DNA from: an uncultured Porphyromonadaceae bacterium | Lineage (GTDB): Bacteria; Bacteroidota; Bacteroidia; Bacteroidales; Muribaculaceae | DNA length: 22,076 bases | Direction: 5' to 3' | Assembly: GCA_947174735.1 (NCBI GenBank) | Contig: CAMWKC010000008.1 | Location: 1-22,076 of the forward strand | Part shown: piece by piece, positions 2,785 through 19,764 of the stretch | Position numbering within the stretch: the first letter of the stretch is position 1 | How the letters are laid out: each line of letters begins with the position of its first letter | The notes under the pieces: generated by a model | Seen by the model: only the letters and a program-made list of their open reading frames with translations | What the model was told of the DNA's origin: nothing | The model's database searches: none | Program-made: the position numbers and the translations under genes

Positions 2785-3969
2785 GTGACTGACATTTATT
2801 TTTTTACATTCAATTTCCAGCCTATATGCTGGTGTCTTATCGGTGTCGCCATACTCTGCGGAGTACTGGTCTGGTGGCTTATAGCGCCTTTCAGACGCAC
2901 AGCGGCAACCTCTGTATATGTGCCTACCGAGGCACCAAGTACTACTTCGCATCCCGCTCTCACAGTCATAGTCTATGCTTCAAATCATCTTGACGAACTC
3001 GATGCATATCTGGAGAAGCTTATGCATCAGGATTATGACAATTTTGATGTAGTACTGGTCTACGATTCCGGAGCCTCAGCCACAGCAGCTGTCTCCGAAC
3101 ACTACAACGCACTCTACGAAAATCTTTACTTTACTTTTATTCCGCCCGAATCGCATCACCTGAGTCGTCAGAAACTGGCTGTGACCCTCGGAGTAAAAGC
3201 AGCAAAGGGCGACGTGGTGCGCACTACTGATACGGACTATACCATTCCCTCGGACTCATGGCTGTCGGAGATGATGGACCCGTTTACCCGCGACTATTCT
3301 ACGGAAGTTGTGTTAGGGTTTACCCGCTATGATTTCAGAGAACTCAGCGGTGCTTCGCGCTGGTATCGTCAGTTTGATGCTGTGCTGACTTCAGCCATGT
3401 GGTTAGGTTATGCCATAGGCGGCCGTCCTTATCGCGGTGACGGTTCAAACCTGGCCTTTATGAAACGCCTGTTTTTTGAACAGAAAGGTTTTGCACGTAC
3501 TCTCACCTTACAGACCGGCTACGATGATGTATTTGTCAACGACATTACCTCCTCCGACAATACGGCTGTCATGCTGAATCCCGACTCCGTACTTACCGCT
3601 TACTGGAATGGAGATGCCTCGCGTATGTGGACCGACCGGAAAGAACGCGCCGACTTCTCTGCCCGCTGGCTGCCAAGCGGACCTTTCCTACGGACAGGTG
3701 CTATATCGGCTATGCAGTGGGGTGTGGCCGGCTGTTGTGTCGCTGCCGCTGTTATCGGCCTGCCGAGTCTGATACCGGCTATTATAGCCCTGATAGTGCT
3801 GCTTACTTTCTGGATTTACGAAATTATATTATATAGAAAAGTAGCAGCACGCCTACAGGCCGTAAGGCTCTGCCTTTCACTACCATTCTTCTGGCTCTGG
3901 CACCCGGTCGGCAATCTGCTGTTCCGCTGGCGTCACCGCCCGGATCGCTTCAAGAACTATGCTTTCTGA
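2785..3969 (+). CDS. Membrane-associated family 2 glycosyltransferase
   Basis: A 394-residue GT2-type glycosyltransferase. An N-terminal membrane segment (about 14-35) precedes a GT-A domain with a nucleotide-binding strand and turn (VYDSGAS, 92-98), a DxD-type metal motif within TDTD (148-151), an acceptor-site GDGSNLAF (218-225), a catalytic-base region GYDD (245-248) and a DRKERADFSARW block (284-295) resembling the QxxRW motif. Two or three C-terminal membrane segments follow (about 308-380), then a basic tail. This layout suits a processive or lipid-linked sugar transferase at the inner membrane; the sugar and acceptor cannot be read from sequence. The start is placed at GTG 2785, since the open frame upstream overlaps pldA and encodes low-quality sequence. 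The short gap to pldA suggests an envelope-lipid operon. Confidence 0.85.
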   Translation: MTDIYFFTFNFQPICWCLIGVAILCGVLVWWLIAPFRRTAATSVYVPTEAPSTTSHPALTVIVYASNHLDELDAYLEKLMHQDYDNFDVVLVYDSGASATAAVSEHYNALYENLYFTFIPPESHHLSRQKLAVTLGVKAAKGDVVRTTDTDYTIPSDSWLSEMMDPFTRDYSTEVVLGFTRYDFRELSGASRWYRQFDAVLTSAMWLGYAIGGRPYRGDGSNLAFMKRLFFEQKGFARTLTLQTGYDDVFVNDITSSDNTAVMLNPDSVLTAYWNGDASRMWTDRKERADFSARWLPSGPFLRTGAISAMQWGVAGCCVAAAVIGLPSLIPAIIALIVLLTFWIYEIILYRKVAARLQAVRLCLSLPFFWLWHPVGNLLFRWRHRPDRFKNYAF

Positions 3970-4014
3970 TATATATATCAGAGAGGCACTAAGTTACAAA
4001 AACTTTCTGACATA

Positions 4015-4059
4015 ACAAAGCCCTGACTTTCTCAAGTCAGGACTTTGTTTTATGTTTTT
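4015..4059 (+). terminator. Rho-independent terminator after the pldA-GT operon
   Basis: Arms 4015-4029 and 4034-4048 form a 15-bp stem with one G-T wobble and a four-base loop, followed by a T-rich tract (TTTTATGTTTTT). It closes the plus-strand operon. It may also stop the minus-strand operon arriving from 4137, though the T-tract on that side is weak. Bases 4060-4136 show no other convincing structure. Confidence 0.85.
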
Positions 4060-4136
4060 CAGCATGTTATGAAACGAGGAGACCTCAATTTCGACATAGC
4101 CTCCTGATGTACCCTCTAAGTATTTTTATTACAGAA

Positions 4137-4799
4137 TTACGGTTCAACCACCTGAATAATATTACCGACTTTTTTTAACGGTTTTGCGCCTGTTAAATAT
4201 AAGGGGATTTTAACAGACTCTATAGGGAACAACCTAAGATGAGAACTAAGCGGATACTGCTCAAATATGGCTCTGTCACTGATATACCACTCAGCCACTG
4301 ACAGGTCAGGTAACGATGATATTACCTCCCAGAAATAAAAGAGTTTGTTTTTTGCTACCACTGCGACAGCTTTATGGCCGTCATTAAATGTAGCTATACA
4401 CACATATCTCCATCTTGATATAGTATTCACAAGCTCTTCTTCTGAAGGAGCATACTCTATAGTTATCCGTAGACCGTAGGTAGCAGTGATACGGTTCATT
4501 TCAGCTTTAAACAGTGAACCGTGAGCAGCATCGTCCCGAAGATTATTGGTCTGTATGTAATAATGAATCATCTCATGAAGCAAAGTATCAATATACTCCT
4601 CCTCAGGAAGATTCTGTCTGACGCTTATTTCAATCCATACTGTTTTCTTACCTGAATCTCGATCTGTTTCACAACAAGTACGCCCAAGAGCCCCTTTACG
4701 TGTACTCAGTTGTATAATAGGTCTTTGTAACTGTCCGTAAAAACATAGTTTATTGAAATAATCAAATTTAGTATATAGATATTCAAGTGTTGGCCGCAT
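4137..4799 (-). CDS. SprT-like zinc metalloprotease-domain protein (fourth gene of ZorAB-like operon)
   Basis: A 220-residue protein whose first 110 residues are SprT-like. It has the family opening (LCFYGQLQRPIIQLS, 18-32), then HEMIH (75-79), the HExxH zinc and catalytic motif, with a third likely ligand at His93 in AAHGSLF. SprT/SPRTN proteins are metalloproteases; eukaryotic SPRTN cleaves DNA-protein crosslinks. The usual C-terminal zinc ribbon of SprT is missing: the last 100 residues hold only one cysteine and form a beta-rich domain I do not recognise. No signal peptide or membrane segment is seen, so it should act in the cytosol. It starts 9 bp after the Sel1-repeat gene ends and is the last gene of a four-gene unit. 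Whether it is an effector, a maturation protease or a repair factor is unknown. Confidence 0.82.
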   Translation of the reverse strand: MRPTLEYLYTKFDYFNKLCFYGQLQRPIIQLSTRKGALGRTCCETDRDSGKKTVWIEISVRQNLPEEEYIDTLLHEMIHYYIQTNNLRDDAAHGSLFKAEMNRITATYGLRITIEYAPSEEELVNTISRWRYVCIATFNDGHKAVAVVAKNKLFYFWEVISSLPDLSVAEWYISDRAIFEQYPLSSHLRLFPIESVKIPLYLTGAKPLKKVGNIIQVVEP

Positions 4800-4808
4800 A
4801 GCGTTTAA

Positions 4809-6848
4809 TTATTCTGAAACAGTGTTACCGTTTTTATCTATCCAGTTTGTCCCAAGCCTTATGAGAGCCTTTTTTGAATCGGTATGATTGTGCAAGGCAG
4901 CTTTACGAAACCAAAAAATAGCCTTACTGATATTTTTGGTTCCGGTTTCTCCGAGTTCCCACATTCTCCCTATATTGTACATAGCATCTAATTGAGGGGA
5001 ATCTTCTGTAAAATTTCCTTTATCACCTGTCTGAACAGCTTTGCAGTAATATTCCATAGCTTTAGCAGAATCCTGAGCTATATAATCTCCATACCGGTAA
5101 AGAAAAGCAATTTCCAGCATCGCAGCAACGTTTTCTTTAGCGATAGCTTTCTCATACCAATGAAGCATCTTATCAGTATCCTTCTCTACGCCGCATCCTC
5201 TTTTATATAGCCGGGCCACCTCAATCATTGCTAGTTCAAAACCGTTTTTAGCAGACATCTCCATGTAATGAAACATCTCTTTGTAAGACTGTTCAACACC
5301 TCTGCCTTCTTTATAATAAAGCCCTATATTGTATTGCGCTACATAATTTCCAGAGTCAGCAGCCCTTTTAAACCAGTAAATCTTCTTATCAAGTGCTTCC
5401 TCTACATATCCGAGATTATTCATAGCCGTACAATCTCCTTCTTCAGCCAATTGAGAATATAAGGCCAGAGCTCTGGACCGGTTACCGAATTGGGAATTCG
5501 AATAGGCTACTTTAAAACGACAGCTTCTGTCACCTTGTGCGAGTGCTTTCTCACCCCAATAGGCGCTTTGTTCGTAATCTACCGGAAATATTTCACCATA
5601 AAAATATAACTCACACAACTTTATCTGTGCTGTTATATCACCGTTTTCAGCACTATGTATAAGTGTAATAATCTTATTGTCGTTCGCAGCAGCGACCGGC
5701 AACTCCGACTGTGGTTCTAAAAGGTTTTCCCAGTATCTTTTCTGTTCATTATCGACCGGTAAATCATAACTACCATTCTCAAAGGCATCAGCTAATTTTT
5801 TTATATATTCCGTATTACCTTCATTAGCAAGCATGGCTATAAATTTAATTGCAGTCGCAGAAGAAATATCTTCGTTATTCTCAACTGTAGCTATTATCAT
5901 AGGAGCCAGATACTTATATGTAGATTTAGAAGCAAATGAAGCATATATTTTAACAGCTCTGAGAATATCCTGTTTACATCCGGTACCTTTCATCAAGTCA
6001 TTTGCCACAGCTATTAAAGCAGGCTTATAGGACTGTCGGGCGGCTTTTAAGTACCATTGATGGGCTATGGTATCGTTATGGTCAATAAAATTACCAGTAC
6101 GATAAAATTCGGCTATTTTACATTGGGCCATAGGACAACTTCTTTGTACCTTGTAGTTCCCACACTGATTACATTCTGTACAACCGCTTTCCATCTCATC
6201 AAAACAAAGGAAAAATGAATCTTTAGGGTCAAGGTGTTCAACGGCATGTTCCATATACTCTTTTCTGTCCGAACAAAAAAGGGTAGGGGTGTGCTCTTTC
6301 TCTTCTGAAACGGTAAATCTTAAATCGTCAAGTGTGACTTTAAAATTAATAACTACCGGACAGCTAAACAGATTATCTGTTTCAGATTTCATAAACGATG
6401 CATAATAAGCACAGCGTGTGGAATCAATTATTGAGCGTATCAACTTCTTATTACGGTGTTGCTGAAATCTGAAAAGCCTACCGAGCGGGGTATTATCTCT
6501 TTCACTATTGATATTAGACAAAATATGAAGAATCATAATACTTGAAATATTCAGAGTCTCAAAGTTCTGTTCATCCCAGCGGTTACCTGTCCGTATAATA
6601 TTAAGGCTGTGCCATTTCGATTTCAATTTTTTCTCATTATCCAGAATTTTATAGTTAGTATCACCCAATAGTATAATATTTATACAAAGCTGTTTCCGGT
6701 CAGTGTATATGTCCATGAATTCAAGTACACCCATACTTCCGTCAACATTTGTGCCGTCATATTCTATAATTGTAATGCTTGATACTATTTTCAGAATTCG
6801 TGATAATCTGTCATTATAGTATATTTCTCTCTTAATACATTCTATCAT
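4809..6848 (-). CDS. Sel1-repeat protein with unknown N-terminal domain and Cys cluster (third gene of ZorAB-like operon)
   Basis: A 679-residue protein without signal peptide. Residues 1 to about 215 are a mixed alpha/beta region that I cannot assign. A cysteine cluster follows: Cys223, 226, 229, 238 and 243 (C-x2-C-x2-C-x8-C-x4-C), likely a metal site. From about 240 to 660 there are around eleven Sel1/TPR-like helical repeats, clearest at 472-660 (for example AQYNIGLYYKEGRGV and AMYNIGRMWELGETG). Sel1 repeats form solenoids that bind proteins, so this could be the recognition or scaffold subunit linking the membrane motor to the SprT-like partner; that role is inference. It lies 8 bp after the MotB-like gene and 9 bp before the SprT-like gene. 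The ATG at 6848 is the first in frame and gives tight operon spacing. Confidence 0.85.
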   Translation of the reverse strand: MIECIKREIYYNDRLSRILKIVSSITIIEYDGTNVDGSMGVLEFMDIYTDRKQLCINIILLGDTNYKILDNEKKLKSKWHSLNIIRTGNRWDEQNFETLNISSIMILHILSNINSERDNTPLGRLFRFQQHRNKKLIRSIIDSTRCAYYASFMKSETDNLFSCPVVINFKVTLDDLRFTVSEEKEHTPTLFCSDRKEYMEHAVEHLDPKDSFFLCFDEMESGCTECNQCGNYKVQRSCPMAQCKIAEFYRTGNFIDHNDTIAHQWYLKAARQSYKPALIAVANDLMKGTGCKQDILRAVKIYASFASKSTYKYLAPMIIATVENNEDISSATAIKFIAMLANEGNTEYIKKLADAFENGSYDLPVDNEQKRYWENLLEPQSELPVAAANDNKIITLIHSAENGDITAQIKLCELYFYGEIFPVDYEQSAYWGEKALAQGDRSCRFKVAYSNSQFGNRSRALALYSQLAEEGDCTAMNNLGYVEEALDKKIYWFKRAADSGNYVAQYNIGLYYKEGRGVEQSYKEMFHYMEMSAKNGFELAMIEVARLYKRGCGVEKDTDKMLHWYEKAIAKENVAAMLEIAFLYRYGDYIAQDSAKAMEYYCKAVQTGDKGNFTEDSPQLDAMYNIGRMWELGETGTKNISKAIFWFRKAALHNHTDSKKALIRLGTNWIDKNGNTVSE

Positions 6849-6856
6849 ATTGTATC

Positions 6857-7555
6857 TTATCTTGATCTTTCTACAAAACTTTCCAGTAATTCTTCTCCTA
6901 AAGTTATAATACGAAATTCTACCCTACGCGATTTTTCTCTATCAATAGGCTCACCTGTAAGTAATGCATAGTCGCCATTATGATCTAAAGCATGGCCGTA
7001 TGATAGGCCGTTAGCCGTAAACCAATATTCCAGTAACTTTTTATCTTCTTCTGAGTAACTTTCGTATTTCGATAGATTTCTGAGAAAATACATTACACTT
7101 AATGCACGACGTTGCGAAAGTATAAGATTCGCCATATACGGATCTGAATCAATCGAGGGGAAAGGCACATCATTCGTGTGGCCTTCGATTCTGATTTCAC
7201 GGATTTTATATTTCAGCGAATCATTCAAAAGTATATCAAGATATTTAGGAAGAATCTCTGCTAACTGTGCTTTAAATTCAGGTTTCAGTTCCCAACTGCC
7301 GTCATCAAATAAGGATTCCGCCTTCTGAAAGCGCATCGATAAATCACCACCGATAGTAATAATACTGTCTTTGGATTCCGTTCTGAATTTATCAATAAGT
7401 TTATCATGAAGTTCCTGTTTATTTTCGACAAAATCCTTTAGTATAGTTTGATTGCTATCTACCTGTTTTATATAGGCAATTGCTATGAAAAGAAAAATTA
7501 TCATCAGACCCGTCATAAGATCTGATACTGATAACCATGGATTATTTCTTATCAT
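6857..7555 (-). CDS. ZorB/MotB-like stator protein with OmpA-type peptidoglycan-binding domain
   Basis: A 232-residue protein with a very short cytosolic N-terminus, one membrane helix (about 13-30) and a periplasmic OmpA-like domain. Asp12 at the start of the helix (SVSDLMTGLM) sits where MotB and ZorB carry the ion-binding aspartate, so coupling to proton or sodium flow is expected. The OmpA core shows IEGHTND (123-129), LSQRRALSVMYFL (146-158) and SRRVEFRI (209-216), the peptidoglycan-binding signature. The NPW-SVSDLMTGLM start resembles ZorB of the Zorya defence system more than flagellar MotB. No flagellar gene is present in the window. It follows the MotA-like gene by 6 bp, as expected for a 5:2 stator pair. 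ExbD is excluded by the OmpA domain. No standard zor symbol is assigned because the partner genes differ. Confidence 0.87.
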   Translation of the reverse strand: MIRNNPWLSVSDLMTGLMIIFLFIAIAYIKQVDSNQTILKDFVENKQELHDKLIDKFRTESKDSIITIGGDLSMRFQKAESLFDDGSWELKPEFKAQLAEILPKYLDILLNDSLKYKIREIRIEGHTNDVPFPSIDSDPYMANLILSQRRALSVMYFLRNLSKYESYSEEDKKLLEYWFTANGLSYGHALDHNGDYALLTGEPIDREKSRRVEFRIITLGEELLESFVERSR

Positions 7556-7561
7556 CGGTAA

Positions 7562-8386
7562 TTAATTTAAAGAGTTTTGATTTTCCTCCCGTGAGGCAAT
7601 ACCATCAAGTTTATTTTTTATCTCTTCTAAATTATTATCCATAACTGTTACTGAGGCTGTTGCCGTCATCAACACCGCACGGGCTTTCTCCTGATCACGA
7701 TTGATACTCTGTGTAGCAGTAAGCATATCCTGAAATATACCTTTTATTTCCTCTACGTCATCTTTAACCTGTTCGGTGTCAAGTCGCAGACTTTGTAATT
7801 GTTCCAAGTTCTCTTTAATCTGTGCAGCAGATGTCAACAAACCTTTCAATTGCTCTATATCGTTCTGAATCGACCAAACACTAACCATTAACTCTCTTAT
7901 TCGTGCAAGGTCATTCTTAATCTGTCTGACAACAGGATACAGACTTTCTATTTCGTCCTCAGAGTCAACAGGAGATTTTACAACCGAAAGTAATGATGTA
8001 TGATTGTTATTCAGAGTATCGACTATAAGCTGAACAGCCTGCCTTAAGTCAAACTCAGGATTCTCGTGAGATAACTTTTTACTCAAGACTCTGTTAAGCC
8101 AAATTGAACCGATCATACCTAACAATGATGTGAAGAAAGCTGTCTTAAGTCCCTGTAGCAGTTCCGGTATACTGGCATCCAGATTGTTGGGATTAAAGGC
8201 AATGAGACCAGCCGTAATACCCACAAAAGTACCTACCACACCCAAAGTGGATATTAAGGAAGGAAGTTGTTCCATCCAGTTACGTTTTCTTTTTATATCA
8301 TCTGATCTTACTTTTCTGATATAGAACAGTGCTACAAGAAAGGCAATGATAATTATTGTACAGCAGATATAAGTCAGTAGATTCAT
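7562..8386 (-). CDS. ZorA/MotA/ExbB-like channel protein with coiled-coil tail
   Basis: A 274-residue membrane protein. Helices lie at about 5-23, 42-64 and 76-98. The second has the channel-family motif TLGVVGTFVGIT (47-58) and the third KTAFFTSLLGMIGS (81-94), typical of MotA/TolQ/ExbB proteins. The remaining 175 residues are cytosolic, charged and helical, and include four successive 17-residue repeats (155-222). Three helices plus a long cytosolic tail match ZorA, whose tail is thought to pass the signal from membrane to effectors; this tail is much shorter than in the ZorA proteins I know. It is the first gene of the operon, divergent from the TlpA-like lipoprotein gene. Alternative readings are ExbB/TolQ-type transport or a non-defence motor, but the OmpA-type partner favours a ZorAB-like stator. 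Confidence 0.87.
   Translation of the reverse strand: MNLLTYICCTIIIIAFLVALFYIRKVRSDDIKRKRNWMEQLPSLISTLGVVGTFVGITAGLIAFNPNNLDASIPELLQGLKTAFFTSLLGMIGSIWLNRVLSKKLSHENPEFDLRQAVQLIVDTLNNNHTSLLSVVKSPVDSEDEIESLYPVVRQIKNDLARIRELMVSVWSIQNDIEQLKGLLTSAAQIKENLEQLQSLRLDTEQVKDDVEEIKGIFQDMLTATQSINRDQEKARAVLMTATASVTVMDNNLEEIKNKLDGIASREENQNSLN
7721..7924 (-). repeat. Four 17-residue (51-bp) repeats in the tail of the ZorA-like protein
   Basis: Residues 155-171, 172-188, 189-205 and 206-222 align without gaps on the pattern Q/S-I/V-K/Q-x-D/N-L/I/V-x-x-L/I-x-x-L/I. They start QIKNDLARI, SIQNDIEQL, QIKENLEQL and QVKDDVEEI. The DNA units have drifted, so the repetition is seen at protein level. A related but looser segment occurs near residues 250-262. 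Confidence 0.75.
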
Positions 8387-8657
8387 ACAACATTATTTTT
8401 AGTTGATAATAAATACTTTAGTAATTAAAAAATCTGTCCGGTACTTTGAAAGACCAACACAATGATCTCCGAACCGACTATATGATAATGAAGAAACATT
8501 CGAAGAATATTTTTTCAGTAACTCTGCAAAATTAAATAAAAGTATGAGAATATACATTATCGATATTTCAATACTGAAAAAATTTTTACTAACTAACGAA
8601 TTATCATTATCTTTGCACTTCATCACATACTTATACAATTTCAAAAGTAAATTAAAA
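8387..8657. promoter_or_regulatory. Divergent AT-rich promoter region between the ZorAB-like operon and the TlpA-like gene
   Basis: This 271-bp gap holds promoters for both directions. Plus strand: TATCTTTG at 8608-8615 gives a start near 8621 and a leader of about 37 nt before ATG 8658; its -33 element is weak. Minus strand: TAATTTTG (complement of 8527-8534) would give a leader of about 130 nt before the ATG at 8386, with no clear -33 TTTG. That long leader could carry control signals, but I see no strong hairpin in it. Open frames crossing this gap on either strand (8544 plus, 8399-8716 minus) do not look coding. Confidence 0.5.
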
Positions 8658-9779
8658 ATGAAGAAGATAATTCTTTGGGCGGCTACAGGTTTAATAATGG
8701 TAGGCTGCTCAAACAATGAGGGTGATGTGACTATCCAGCTTCCAGAAGACTTTCAAGAGAAAACTCTGGTAGTCAGTCATGTGACAATCGACAATGTCTT
8801 CAATGCCAAACAGCAGGAAGACCTTAAAGTGGTTTATGACACACTGGAAGTCAAAAACGGTGTTGCGAGAATGAAACTTGATCAAGCCGGGGCTGCGCGA
8901 TATAATATAGAGCCACCGGTAATGAGCCGTATGGAACCCGATTTTTATGCTGCCCCCAACGACAAGCTGGAAGTTAGTATCAGTTCTTTTGATCCGCTTG
9001 ACTATAAAGTAAAGGGCACACAGCTGATGGAGGATCTTACCACACTCTCATCAATTACAGGACCTATCCAGCAGGAATACTTCTATCTGGTTAATAATAA
9101 CGAGAATGTGTCAGAAGCGCAGACGAAGGCTATAATGGATCGCTATGATGCAGCAATCAAAAAATTCGTAGCCGACAACCCTAAAAGTCCGGCTATACCC
9201 TTTGCTATTCTGGACCTCAGCGGTGATGATTTCAAGACTGCATACGATAATATGACCCCGGAAGCAAAGAAGTCTATTCTTATGCCTTACGCTATATTAT
9301 ACAATCAGCAGGCGGAAGAGATGCTGAAAGATAGAGAAGCTGAAGAAGCACGTAAGGCGGAAGTAGCCTCTGGCACAATCACTGCTCCCGACTTTACACT
9401 CCCTGACCTTGATGGTAAAAAAGTAAGTCTGTCTGATTTCCGTGGTAAATGGGTCATCCTCGACTTCTGGGGTAGTTGGTGCGACTGGTGTATAAGAGGC
9501 TTCCCGGCGTTGAAGGAGGCGTATAACAAATACGGTGACAAGATTGTGGTAATCGGTATCGGCTGCAACGAGCCGGAAGCTGACTGGCGTGCCGGAGTCA
9601 AAAAACATCAGATACCCTGGCTGAATCTCTATAACGGTGACAACAGAGAGCTATATACCGCTTATAAAATAGAGGGTTTTCCTACTAAGGCCATCATTAA
9701 CCCCGAAGGCAAACTCGTAGACCTCACTACAGGTGAAGATCCGACATTCTATACCCGTCTTGCCAACTTCGTAGAGTAA
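8658..9779 (+). CDS. TlpA/ResA-like thioredoxin-fold lipoprotein
   Basis: A 373-residue lipoprotein with signal peptide and lipobox MVGC (lipidated Cys17). Residues about 24-120 form a beta-rich N-terminal domain similar in placement to DUF4369 of Bacteroidales TlpA-like proteins, followed by a helical linker and a thioredoxin-fold domain from about 240. The active site is WCDWC (Cys275 and Cys278) and the cis-proline loop is GFPT (340-343). Such proteins reduce or isomerise disulfides in the periplasm; the partner is unknown. The ATG at 8658 is chosen because it begins the signal peptide and lies just after the -7 element; the open frame from 8544 starts upstream of that promoter. It is transcribed alone, away from the ZorAB-like operon, and ends before a strong hairpin. 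Confidence 0.9.
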   Translation: MKKIILWAATGLIMVGCSNNEGDVTIQLPEDFQEKTLVVSHVTIDNVFNAKQQEDLKVVYDTLEVKNGVARMKLDQAGAARYNIEPPVMSRMEPDFYAAPNDKLEVSISSFDPLDYKVKGTQLMEDLTTLSSITGPIQQEYFYLVNNNENVSEAQTKAIMDRYDAAIKKFVADNPKSPAIPFAILDLSGDDFKTAYDNMTPEAKKSILMPYAILYNQQAEEMLKDREAEEARKAEVASGTITAPDFTLPDLDGKKVSLSDFRGKWVILDFWGSWCDWCIRGFPALKEAYNKYGDKIVVIGIGCNEPEADWRAGVKKHQIPWLNLYNGDNRELYTAYKIEGFPTKAIINPEGKLVDLTTGEDPTFYTRLANFVE

Positions 9780-14927: not shown

Positions 14928-17900
14928 ATGAAGAACGTATGTTTTCATCTGAATCGGAGGCTATGGGCGATGATGGCCATGCTGCTATTGCTCACGCTTC
15001 CGGCCATAGCTCAGAAAATTACGGTAAACGGCACCGTAGTGGATGAGTATGGTGAACCCCTGATCGGAGCGACCGTGATGGAGAAAGGTACAAGCAACGG
15101 TACGGCTGCCGACTTTGACGGTAACTTTACCATCACTGTACCGGGTAACGCTACCCTCGTGGTGAGCTACGTAGGTTACGATCCTATGGAGGTGCCTGTT
15201 GACGGACGCACCGAAATCAGGATTGAAATGAAAGAAAACAGTACCATGTTGGCTGAAACTGTTGTAATCGGTTATGGTAGTGTTAAGAAGTCTGATGCCA
15301 CCGGTTCTGTGGCTATTGTGAAACCTGATGAAGTAGAGGCCGGTCTTGCCACTTCTGTGCAGGACATGCTTGTAGGTCAGACTCCCGGTGTGGTAGTTAC
15401 AACTGCCGGTGGTCCTCAGGGTGAAGCTAATATCCGTATCCGTGGTGGTGCTTCACTTTCTGCTAACAATGACCCTCTGATCGTACTTGACGGTGTGCCT
15501 TTGAGCAGCGATACCCCTCTGGGTATGGGTTCACCTCTGTCGATGATTGATCCTGAATCAATCGAATCAATGACTATTCTTAAAGACGCTTCAGCTACAG
15601 CTATCTACGGTAGCCGTGCATCGAACGGTGTGATTCTTATTACCTCTAAGAAAGGCCGTGCCGGTAAACCCCGTGTAAGCTTTACTGCTAACTTCTTTGT
15701 AGACTATGCACGTAAAAAGACTGAAGTGCTCGGCGCAGATGCTTTCCGTAATCTTGTGATTGACCGTTACGGTGCGGATTCTGCCGCTGCCGGTTATCTC
15801 GGCAATGTGAGCACTGACTGGCAGGACGAAATCTATCGTACGGTGTTCAGCTCAGACTACAGTCTTTCAGTAGCCGGTGCCTTAGGTGTGCTTCCTTATC
15901 GTATCAGCGCTTCATTTACCAATAATAAAGGTATTCTCAAAGGTTCAGACATGAACCGTACAACTTTCGGTTTTACTCTGACTCCGAAATTCTTTGATGA
16001 TCATCTTTCGGTTACAGCTAATGCCAAAGGTTTCTATCTCCGCAATAACTGGGGTCAAACCGGTGCTATCGGTCAGGCAGTAAGCTACAACCCGACTATA
16101 CCTATCCGTGATAATGTGCCTATCGTAGGTGGTACTGCTGCTGAGTTCGGTTATCTGTTCAATGGTTACAACGAGCCTTACACTGTAGCCGGCGGTACAG
16201 CTAACCTTGAAAATAATGCTGCTTATAACCCGGTTGCCACTATTGAGCAGGCTAAGAGCAATTCTGAAGTATTCCGTTCAAACGGTAATCTGCAGCTTGA
16301 TTATTCTTTCCATTTCCTCCCCGAACTGCACGCTAACCTTAACCTCGGTTATGACGTAACCAAGTCAAACGACTACAACACAGTTGAGGCTAACTCGCAC
16401 ATGGCATGGAAAGACCATAATAACTACGGCGGTGGTTCTCGTAACAAGCAGTATGCTTTCCGCAGTAATACTCTTCTTGAGTTCTATCTCAATTATAAGA
16501 AAGAAATCGAGTCTGCCCAGTCAATGATTGACGCTACTGCCGGTTACACATGGTCGCGTGATGCTGCTAACGGCTGGAACTATGGTGCAAGCTCTAACTC
16601 AGGTAAAGCAACTACTATGGGTCTTCAGCCTGCTGCACAGACTCCCAACGGCTTTATCCTTAACTTCGATCCTGCTACAGAGAATCAGGTAAACAACCTG
16701 TTCCAGGCAGACAGCACTGACAAGGACGGTAACTACCATTGGAAAAATCACCTGCAGTTACTCTCGTTCTTCGGACGTATCAACTACACTTTCAAGGATC
16801 GTTATCTGTTTACTGCCACAGTCCGTGGTGATGCTACCTCACGTTTCTCTAAAGACAACCGTTGGGGTGTATTCCCTGCTGTCGCTCTCGGCTGGCGTAT
16901 TGACCAGGAAGGTTTCATGGAGCGTGCAAGCGGTTGGCTGAGCGACCTGAAGCTTCGTCTCGGCTGGGGTGAAACCGGTCAGCAGGCTGTAGGTTCTTAC
17001 TACAACTATCTGGCTATGTATAACGTATCACAGCCCGGTTCATACTATACTAACGGTGCAGGCGGCTGGCTGATACCTTACTTCCCCGATGGTTACAATC
17101 CGGATCTGAAGTGGGAAACAACCACAACATGGAACGTCGGTCTTGATTACGGTTTCATGAACAACCGTATCTCAGGTAGCATCGAGTGGTATCTGCGTAA
17201 CACACGCGACCTTCTTTCGACAGTGCCTGTTCCGGCCGGTTCTTCTACCGTTAACTTCCTTCCCCAGAACATCGGTGATATGCGTAACTATGGTATCGAG
17301 TTCAATATCTCAGCCAAGCCTATCGTAACTGATGACTTTGTATGGACACTTAGCTACAATATCGGCTGGAACCACAATGAAATTACCAACCTTGACGGTA
17401 ACGAATTCGGTGTCGGCGGCGGTATCGGTGGTACAGGTGGTAACTGTATGATACACCGTGAGGGTTATCCCGCTTTCTCATTCAACCTTTATCAGCAGGT
17501 TTATGATGCTCAGGGCAATCCTGTGGAAGGTGCTTACGTTGACCAGAACGGCGACGGCGTGATAGATACTCACGACCTTGTTGTTCGTCATTCAAAAGAT
17601 CCTAATGTGACAATGACCTTCGGTTCGAACTTCCGTTATAAGAAGTGGGACCTCGGCTTCTCACTGCGTGCTTCTCTTGGCAATTATGTTTACGCACAGG
17701 CTCTGCGCGGCGGTACAGCTCTTGACGGTGTATTCCGTAACAATCAGCTTTCTAACGTATTCGTTAACGACTTCTACTTCCAGGCTGACCAGTCGTTCTC
17801 TGACTATTGGCTGCGCAACGCTTCTTTCCTGCGCTGTGATAACATCACTCTGGGCTACACTTTCGACAATCTCATCAACGATAAGCTCAACCTGCGTATT

Positions 17901-18032
17901 TTCGCCGGTGTGCAGAACCCCTTCGTCATTACCAAGTACAAAGGTCTTGACCCGGAGGTATTCAGCGGTGTTGACGGTAATATCTACCCCCGTACCACTT
18001 CATGGTCACTGGGTATCGTAGCCAACTTCTAA
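14928..18032 (+). CDS. susC: SusC/RagA-family TonB-dependent outer-membrane transporter
   Basis: A 1034-residue SusC-type transporter that imports oligosaccharides across the outer membrane with energy from TonB. A signal peptide ends near Ala28 (AIAQK). It is followed by a carboxypeptidase-regulatory-like beta domain (about 31-103), a TonB box region (AETVVIGYG, 109-117), and the plug with IRIRGGASL (169-177) and the SusC signature LKDASATAIYGSRASNGV (218-235). The rest is the 22-strand barrel ending in aromatic Phe (VANF). Length and domains are normal for the family. It is the first gene of the locus; susD begins within about 35 bp of its stop, as in other SusCD pairs whose products form a lidded transporter. 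Downstream SusE/F-like genes point to alpha-glucan as cargo. Confidence 0.95.
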   Translation: MKNVCFHLNRRLWAMMAMLLLLTLPAIAQKITVNGTVVDEYGEPLIGATVMEKGTSNGTAADFDGNFTITVPGNATLVVSYVGYDPMEVPVDGRTEIRIEMKENSTMLAETVVIGYGSVKKSDATGSVAIVKPDEVEAGLATSVQDMLVGQTPGVVVTTAGGPQGEANIRIRGGASLSANNDPLIVLDGVPLSSDTPLGMGSPLSMIDPESIESMTILKDASATAIYGSRASNGVILITSKKGRAGKPRVSFTANFFVDYARKKTEVLGADAFRNLVIDRYGADSAAAGYLGNVSTDWQDEIYRTVFSSDYSLSVAGALGVLPYRISASFTNNKGILKGSDMNRTTFGFTLTPKFFDDHLSVTANAKGFYLRNNWGQTGAIGQAVSYNPTIPIRDNVPIVGGTAAEFGYLFNGYNEPYTVAGGTANLENNAAYNPVATIEQAKSNSEVFRSNGNLQLDYSFHFLPELHANLNLGYDVTKSNDYNTVEANSHMAWKDHNNYGGGSRNKQYAFRSNTLLEFYLNYKKEIESAQSMIDATAGYTWSRDAANGWNYGASSNSGKATTMGLQPAAQTPNGFILNFDPATENQVNNLFQADSTDKDGNYHWKNHLQLLSFFGRINYTFKDRYLFTATVRGDATSRFSKDNRWGVFPAVALGWRIDQEGFMERASGWLSDLKLRLGWGETGQQAVGSYYNYLAMYNVSQPGSYYTNGAGGWLIPYFPDGYNPDLKWETTTTWNVGLDYGFMNNRISGSIEWYLRNTRDLLSTVPVPAGSSTVNFLPQNIGDMRNYGIEFNISAKPIVTDDFVWTLSYNIGWNHNEITNLDGNEFGVGGGIGGTGGNCMIHREGYPAFSFNLYQQVYDAQGNPVEGAYVDQNGDGVIDTHDLVVRHSKDPNVTMTFGSNFRYKKWDLGFSLRASLGNYVYAQALRGGTALDGVFRNNQLSNVFVNDFYFQADQSFSDYWLRNASFLRCDNITLGYTFDNLINDKLNLRIFAGVQNPFVITKYKGLDPEVFSGVDGNIYPRTTSWSLGIVANF

Positions 18033-18066
18033 TCATTACATGATAGAAACGAAAAACCTTAAGACA

Positions 18067-19764
18067 ATGAATCTCAAAAAATATTTAATGATTGGTGGTG
18101 CTGCTCTTACTCTCGGTCTGAGCTCATGCGTAGGCGACCTTGATTTGGAGCCTAACGATCCCAATCTGGTAAATCCTAACGATCCCGATTTTAAAGCCAA
18201 TACTCTGGCTATCTGCTATTCGGGTATCGCTTGCAGCGGTATCTCAGGACCTGGTAGCTCATACGTAAGCGGTCTTGATGCCGGTACTTCGGCTTACCTG
18301 CGTATGATATTTACTCTTAATGAGTTTCCGACTGACGAGGTAGTATGGCTCTGGTCTGACTCCGGCGTACCCGAGATTACAGCCTGTACATGGGCAAGCA
18401 ACAACGGTCTGCTTGAAGGTGCTTATTACCGTCTTGTAGGACACGTGGCTATATGTAACCAGTTCCTTGCCAATACAGCTGATGCTACAGACGCTGAGAC
18501 AAGCGAAATGCGTGCTGAGGCACGTGTGCTCCGTGCATACTCATATTATAATATGCTTGACCTGTTCGGACAGTCTTCATTCATTACTGAAGAAGCTGCC
18601 GTTGGTGAGGAACCAGAGCAGATTTCACGTAAAGATCTTTATGACTGGCTTGAAGCTGAGTTACGTGACATTGTGGACAACAAACTTATCAGCGAAAATC
18701 CTGTATACGGCCGTGTAGGTCTTGATGGTGCTGAAGCTTTGTTAGCGCGTCTTTATCTCAATGCCGAAGTATTCTCCGGAACAGGTGCCTGGGATAAATG
18801 TAGCGAGCGTTGCGAGAATATTATCGCACGTCATCGTGGCAGTGGTTTCCAGGGTTCTGGTCTTGCCGAGCATTACCTCTATCTGTTCGCACGTGACAAT
18901 AATGCTTATATGCCCGGTGGTTCGAATAAAGCTGAGAATGAAATTCTCTTCGGTATATCTTTCGACGACACTATGACACAAAGCTACGGCGGTCCGTCGT
19001 TCATCATAGCTGCTACTATATCTAATACTCACTATATGCCGCGACAGATATACGGTTGCTCCGGCGAATGGTCATGTATCCGTGGTATCAAGCAGATGGC
19101 CGAGAAATTCTATGGTCTTGACGGTGACGTCCGTGACGACCTGTGGCTGCGCGGTATAATGCCCGCAGGCCAGAATGCCGATGGCAGCTGGGAAGCTGAG
19201 GATTACAGCGATGAATTCAAAGGCTTCAATGAAGTTTCATGGGCTACTGCAGGTGGTAATGCTATTGTTAAATTTACCGGTCGTACCCGTAACGCTGCCG
19301 CTGACGGTGGCTGGGACATGACAATGGGTTCAGACGGCAACTGGGTATGCAACTTCCCCGCTACCACATTTGCTTCTACTGACCAGCCTATTATACGTCT
19401 GGCTGATGTATATCTGATGTACACTGAGTGTTATGTCAACGGTGGTGCCGGTGAACGTCAGAAGGCTCTTGATTATATCAACGTTGTACGCGCCCGCGCC
19501 GGTGCTCCTGCCTATGGTGCTACTGACCTGACTCGTAAGGGTATAATGGACGAGCGTTCACGTGAGCTTTATCTTGAGAGCGTACGCCGCAGTGACCTTG
19601 TGCGCAACGGTATGTTCGTAGGTCCGACACAGACAGTATGGCAGTGCAAGGGTAGTCTTGAGAACCTCGAGGGTACACGTATTGCCGCTCACTATGCTCT
19701 TTATCCTATCCCGGCAGCGGTGCTGGCAGCTCAGCCTGACTTCAAGCAGAATCCGGGTTATTAA
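18067..19764 (+). CDS. susD: SusD-family starch-type glycan-binding lipoprotein
   Basis: A 565-residue surface lipoprotein that acts as the hinged lid on SusC and binds the glycan. Lipobox GLSSC gives lipidated Cys21. Compared from memory with B. thetaiotaomicron SusD, several regions match: PTDEVVWLW (88-96; the Trp pair of the starch site), QSYGGPS (305-311; Tyr307) and GEWSCI (333-338; Trp335), plus the C-terminal RRSDLVRNGMF and YPIP blocks. Keeping Trp96, Tyr307 and Trp335 supports starch or a related alpha-glucan rather than an unrelated substrate. The ATG at 18067 gives a standard lipoprotein signal of 20 residues; an in-frame ATG at 18040, 7 bp after the susC stop, would add nine residues and cannot be ruled out. 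Confidence 0.93.
   Translation: MNLKKYLMIGGAALTLGLSSCVGDLDLEPNDPNLVNPNDPDFKANTLAICYSGIACSGISGPGSSYVSGLDAGTSAYLRMIFTLNEFPTDEVVWLWSDSGVPEITACTWASNNGLLEGAYYRLVGHVAICNQFLANTADATDAETSEMRAEARVLRAYSYYNMLDLFGQSSFITEEAAVGEEPEQISRKDLYDWLEAELRDIVDNKLISENPVYGRVGLDGAEALLARLYLNAEVFSGTGAWDKCSERCENIIARHRGSGFQGSGLAEHYLYLFARDNNAYMPGGSNKAENEILFGISFDDTMTQSYGGPSFIIAATISNTHYMPRQIYGCSGEWSCIRGIKQMAEKFYGLDGDVRDDLWLRGIMPAGQNADGSWEAEDYSDEFKGFNEVSWATAGGNAIVKFTGRTRNAAADGGWDMTMGSDGNWVCNFPATTFASTDQPIIRLADVYLMYTECYVNGGAGERQKALDYINVVRARAGAPAYGATDLTRKGIMDERSRELYLESVRRSDLVRNGMFVGPTQTVWQCKGSLENLEGTRIAAHYALYPIPAAVLAAQPDFKQNPGY

Follow-up and report, generated by a model that had tools for sequence, protein, structure and literature searches.

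The operon and the question it raises

Does the ZorA–ZorB motor of the Zorya anti-phage systems act only through its recorded partners, or could it also drive a protease? The question is raised by a four-gene operon in a 22,076-nucleotide stretch of DNA from an uncultured Porphyromonadaceae bacterium (GTDB family Muribaculaceae; GCA_947174735.1, contig CAMWKC010000008.1, positions 1 to 22,076), hereafter the window. Four open reading frames (ORFs) lie tightly packed on the minus strand at 4137–8386, separated by 6, 8 and 9 bp, exactly where an earlier note made from the letters alone had placed them. In order of transcription they encode ZorA-like and ZorB-like proteins, a Sel1-repeat protein and an SprT-like metalloprotease. 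The operon is very probably a subtype of Zorya. The fuller reading, of a new Zorya-family anti-phage subtype derived from type II by an effector swap, in which ZorAB would signal through the Sel1-repeat protein to the protease, is one that we regard on the comparisons below as reasonably likely.

A motor pair of the type II branch

The first gene (7562–8386, minus strand) encodes a 274-residue MotA/ExbB/TolQ-like protein, and the second (6857–7555, minus strand) a 232-residue MotB-like protein with an OmpA-like peptidoglycan-binding domain. The profile search that the earlier note had proposed placed both on the type II branch, with PADLOC E-values of 6.2e-43 (ZorA2) and 1e-67 (ZorB2). The corresponding NCBIfam scores lie far below their curated cut-offs (ZorA2, 1.4e-20 and 73 bits against 700; ZorB2, 90 bits against 400), as expected of a divergent branch; the Pfam matches to MotA_ExbB (PF01618, 1.3e-4) and OmpA (PF00691, 7.3e-06) each fall slightly below threshold. 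Hydropathy analysis gives three membrane segments for ZorA, the third of which is weak (1.35, threshold 1.3), and one for ZorB. The description of a three-helix MotA/ExbB-like protein therefore stands with that reservation, as does that of a one-helix partner with a membrane aspartate and an OmpA domain, but the 'long' cytosolic tail ascribed to ZorA does not, since its ca. 170 residues are short for a ZorA.

Residues 5–230 of ZorB align with the S. kujiense type II ZorB of 8VVI (7.4e-32), and the ZorA alignment profile matches ZorA of the same entry (4.7e-18). Asp12 of ZorB (codon at 7520–7522, minus strand) aligns with Asp21 of S. kujiense ZorB (8VVI_A); the membrane aspartate is described as a critical ion-channel residue by Mariano et al. 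(PMC11890865). Asp12, within the motif SVSDLMT, and the EGHT motif of the peptidoglycan-binding domain are retained in all eight operons now identified; judged from the motif, the histidine of EGHT would be the peptidoglycan-binding histidine, H141 in E. coli type II ZorB.

The ZorA tail spans 114–185 residues across these operons, and the S. kujiense type II extension comprises residues 100–378 (PMC11890865). Whole ZorA proteins are 221–292 residues long in the Sel1–SprT operons, as against 364–693 in ZorE loci, the latter without refinement of start sites and leaving out one split gene. This split gene, a type II ZorA in two ORFs (271 + 247 residues) in one genome of the family (L171:8132-9752), is either broken or an assembly error.

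The Sel1-repeat and SprT-like partners

The third gene (4809–6848, minus strand) encodes a 679-residue protein with a predicted α/β N-terminal domain (ca. 1–190) followed by a Sel1 solenoid (ca. 190–679; PF08238, 3.5e-39, six stretches). As the earlier note had observed, it carries a cysteine cluster; Cys215, Cys223, Cys226 and Cys238 (6135–6206, minus strand), a candidate metal site, are invariant in all eight operons, as are His108, Thr144, Arg145 and Cys192. Among 25 sequences, Cys192, Cys223, Cys226 and Cys238 are invariant and Cys215 nearly so. Outside the Sel1 part there is no significant Pfam match and no PDB sequence match. The solenoid is shared with SEL1L, LpnE and LceB, from which the window protein differs in its additional N-terminal domain, its cysteine cluster and its linkage to ZorAB. 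It is the fastest evolving of the four proteins, with 58% identity between the L007 and L008 loci, against 94% for ZorB.

The fourth gene (4137–4799, minus strand) encodes a 220-residue protein in which an SprT domain of Spartan fold (PF10263, 5.2e-13) is followed by a C-terminal α/β domain. The HExxH motif already recognised in the earlier note is accompanied by a distal histidine; this HExxH-x13-H active site (His75, Glu76, His79 and His93; 4521–4577, minus strand) is retained in all eight operons, and its four residues are invariant across a 35-sequence SprT alignment. Spartan proteases cleave DNA-bound proteins. Unlike SPRTN and SprT metalloproteases, the window protein has a C-terminal domain unmatched in Spartan and is operon-linked to ZorAB.

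Other SprT relatives occur in different settings. The window genome encodes a second, 30% identical SprT (G000:C129:3094-3750, L235) adjoining ORFs that by eye are VWA- and TerD-like. In L038, L053, L056 and L074 (partly in L055), a related SprT at ca. 9001 is the last gene of another operon, overlapping its predecessor by 17 bp in L038 and L053; in L038 the other products of this BREX-like operon include a PglX-like methylase, a PglZ-like protein and a helicase-like protein. These operons belong to Bacteroidaceae and Prevotellaceae metagenome-assembled genomes (MAGs), and constitute a second defence-type partnership of the SprT family.

Recurrence and distribution

Scanning genomes with the SprT alignment gave 237 confirmed relatives, of which the best 80 were kept as loci. 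ZorA, ZorB, Sel1 and SprT genes occur in the same order and on the same strand in seven of these, all from named MAGs (L006, L007, L008, L009, L010, L012 and L028), and gaps range from −4 to +34 bp across the eight operons that these loci and the window provide. Such recurrence indicates that the gene set is not a chance arrangement. Record titles name Bacteroidales groups for six of the seven and 'bacterium P3' for the other (L007). SprT identity to the window protein is 45–91% in the linked loci and at most 41% in the remaining 73.

Queried with the Sel1 N-terminal alignment, 3 of 397 genomes of the family matched, all three with the operon; they are the window's own genome and two others, with contigs that have sequence in common with L006 and L009. 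The same query of 335 genomes of the phylum recovered only the window's own genome in full, plus one partial match confined to the repeats. A ZorB search of 393 genomes of the order and 198 of the family yielded 10 further genomes with a true ZorB. The recurrent Sel1 and SprT partners that the earlier note proposed to look for are present throughout the clade (8/8), though in none of the nine other ZorAB loci of this search that could be judged.

In metagenomic data, 16 of 78 ZorB clusters (restricted to contigs of at least 4 kb) have a longest contig identical in size to that of an SprT cluster, compared with a mean of 0.27 and a maximum of 2 in a shifted-length control. Of 120 SprT protein clusters, which include the window's own and were all selected for likeness to its SprT, 119 score more than 20 bits better with a profile of ZorAB-linked than of unlinked SprT. 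The operon may therefore be commoner in uncultured Bacteroidales than genome counts suggest, with ZorAB linkage supported for only some of the clusters.

Apparent descent from type II Zorya

In a midpoint-rooted ZorB tree of 27 rows, the eight Sel1–SprT-linked proteins form one clade (100/99) amid ZorE-linked Zorya II, joining ZorE-linked L199 and L200 (97/93). All 12 ZorE labels in this tree were confirmed by profile, and the ungrouped L202 and L204 also carry ZorE. A single branch (81/97; 82% of bootstrap trees) separates the operon SprT proteins, and with them 18 database entries whose gene context is unknown, from 102 unlinked SprT sequences. Across the eight loci, the pairwise protein distances of the four genes are correlated (Mantel r 0.82–0.98; 0–2 of 5000 permutations as high), as they are across the six that remain once the near copies L006 and L028 are dropped (r 0.80–0.95; 1–3 of 720 permutations as high). 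Ratios of dN/dS of 0.04–0.27 for all four genes in two close pairs indicate purifying selection; in a third pair, three of the four genes were saturated. Taken together, the operon apparently arose by an effector swap from a type II ancestor, in which ZorE was lost, Sel1 and SprT were gained and ZorA was shortened.

ZorA–ZorB–ZorE operons are also present on seven IMG/VR viral contigs (L195–L201), so phages may carry at least some type II Zorya.

Relation to the known Zorya types

ZorC and ZorD are the additional genes of type I, ZorE of type II, and ZorF (DUF3348) and ZorG (DUF2894) of type III (PMC8565338; PMC11890865). The ZorA5B2 complex of types I and II is similar to rotary motors powered by ions, and ZorB binds peptidoglycan; defence depends on this binding, on the channel aspartate and on the tail of ZorA, and the characterised outputs target DNA, type II ZorE being a nickase recruited by ZorAB (PMC11890865). 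The window operon has in common with type II the ZorA/ZorB branch, the channel aspartate, the EGHT motif and the order ZorA–ZorB–effector, but it has Sel1 and SprT genes in place of the HNH nuclease ZorE, and a shorter ZorA. With types I (ZorA-B-C-D) and III (ZorA-B-F-G) it has only the motor core in common. Neither partner gene matches ZorC, ZorD or ZorE (PADLOC) or DUF3348 or DUF2894 (Pfam) at E-values up to 1, and the ZorB3 profile matches the window ZorB at merely 4.3e-4. On the possible identity with a recorded minor type, which the earlier note had left open, the gene set differs from those of types I, II and III.

In a literature search whose coverage excluded most subscription papers, no publication covered both Zorya and SprT, and Zorya and Sel1 were mentioned together only in work on moss. 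By title, none of the papers linking SprT or Sel1 with anti-phage defence concerned Zorya, and there was no relevant work on Zorya and a metalloprotease or, among the matches listed, on ZorA and a protease or under a new Zorya-type name. On gene content and descent, the operon appears to be a well supported Zorya subtype that is unreported in the literature searched.

Genomic surroundings

Restriction or candidate-defence genes lie upstream of the operon in four of its seven relatives, so that homologues are not always in housekeeping contexts: a D12 methylase and an AlwI nuclease in L008, GmrSD in L010, and DUF3990/PDC-M13 genes in L012 (161-residue ORF) and L028 (72-residue ORF). PDC names denote PADLOC candidates. 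Among the genes tested, L006, L007 and L009 have no counted defence neighbour, two matches being left uncounted. In L007 (9675–12863) and L010 (9674–12917), ORFs read by eye as ClpS–ClpA–Aat begin 2 bp and 1 bp, respectively, after SprT; a shared insertion site and a link to the N-degron pathway are candidate explanations for their presence in two distant operons.

Within the window, GC content is 36–38% across 4001–9000 and 44–52% elsewhere. Plus-strand neighbours bound the operon, one ORF ending at 3969 and another, TlpA-like by eye, probably starting at 8658. Further away (14928–19764), a large ORF that by eye resembles TonB-dependent receptors precedes a SusD-like one; the pair is likely to be a carbohydrate uptake locus.

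Proposed mechanism and alternative explanations

By extension from work on types I and II, the ZorAB motor would be switched when an entering phage disturbs the envelope. The Sel1 solenoid could dock on the short ZorA tail, making up for the part of the rod that is missing, and hold or activate SprT at the entry site. There SprT would cleave proteins. Its likeliest targets are phage proteins, either injected along with the DNA or binding to it as it comes in; alternatively, it might cleave a host protein without which the cell comes to a halt. A supporting analogy is Avs5, which requires for activation a C-terminal repeat domain containing TPR and Sel1 motifs (PMC12931631). We slightly favour the protease as the output of the system, and consider the chances of a phage and of a host substrate to be evenly balanced. 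That this is the first Zorya with proteolysis rather than DNA damage as its output, a rotary membrane motor passing the entry signal through a Sel1 adaptor (in place of the ZorA rod) to a Spartan-like protease, which would degrade the proteins that come in with phage DNA at the injection site, is a tentative and rather doubtful proposal when taken as a whole.

Several observations weigh against the reading of the operon as a type II-derived defence system with a protease effector. The ZorA tails, on which defence depends in types I and II, are far shorter here. Most SprT relatives (73 of the 80 loci, 51 of them with at least 5 kb upstream and 5 with less than 1 kb, which cannot be judged) have no ZorAB link, so the SprT family has other roles, and SprT-like peptidases of jumbo phages are thought to cleave host proteins (PMC7824862). 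The system is rare by the Sel1 N-terminal counts in family and phylum genomes; an earlier 18-row ZorB tree recovered the same clade at only 62/97; the four defence neighbourhoods are a raw count, without a background rate from random Bacteroidales loci; and the seven window flanking ORFs tested gave no defence match save an ABC-ATPase cross-match.

The roles of the two partners could also be reversed, the Sel1-repeat protein being effector or sensor through its N-terminal domain and cysteine cluster, with SprT a regulator that would unleash activity by cutting the Sel1-repeat protein or another repressor. The restriction of the N-terminal domain to the operon (3/3 among the family genomes), its invariant residues and cysteine cluster, and the rapid divergence of the protein all favour this arrangement; the want of any significant Pfam or PDB sequence match outside the Sel1 part speaks against it, and we consider it unlikely. 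Recruitment of a ZorAB-like motor to envelope stress or protein quality control, rather than to defence, would suit the absence of defence genes among the window neighbours tested and the ClpS–ClpA–Aat-like ORFs directly after SprT in L007 and L010. It fits poorly with descent from within ZorE-linked Zorya II, the patchy distribution and the restriction or candidate-defence genes beside four relatives, and is improbable. Nor is there much reason to regard Sel1 and SprT as mere passengers of an ordinary ZorAB: SprT relatives without ZorAB do occur in many Bacteroidales, but the conserved order of all four genes in eight operons, their co-divergence and the separate SprT clade make this highly implausible.

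Implications for the Zorya family

The short-tailed ZorA opens the question of how the signal is relayed, which in types I and II is through the rod and here perhaps through a separate Sel1 adaptor. Should ZorAB prove able to drive a protease, its motor would be a sensor of entry in general, open to coupling with a variety of effectors.

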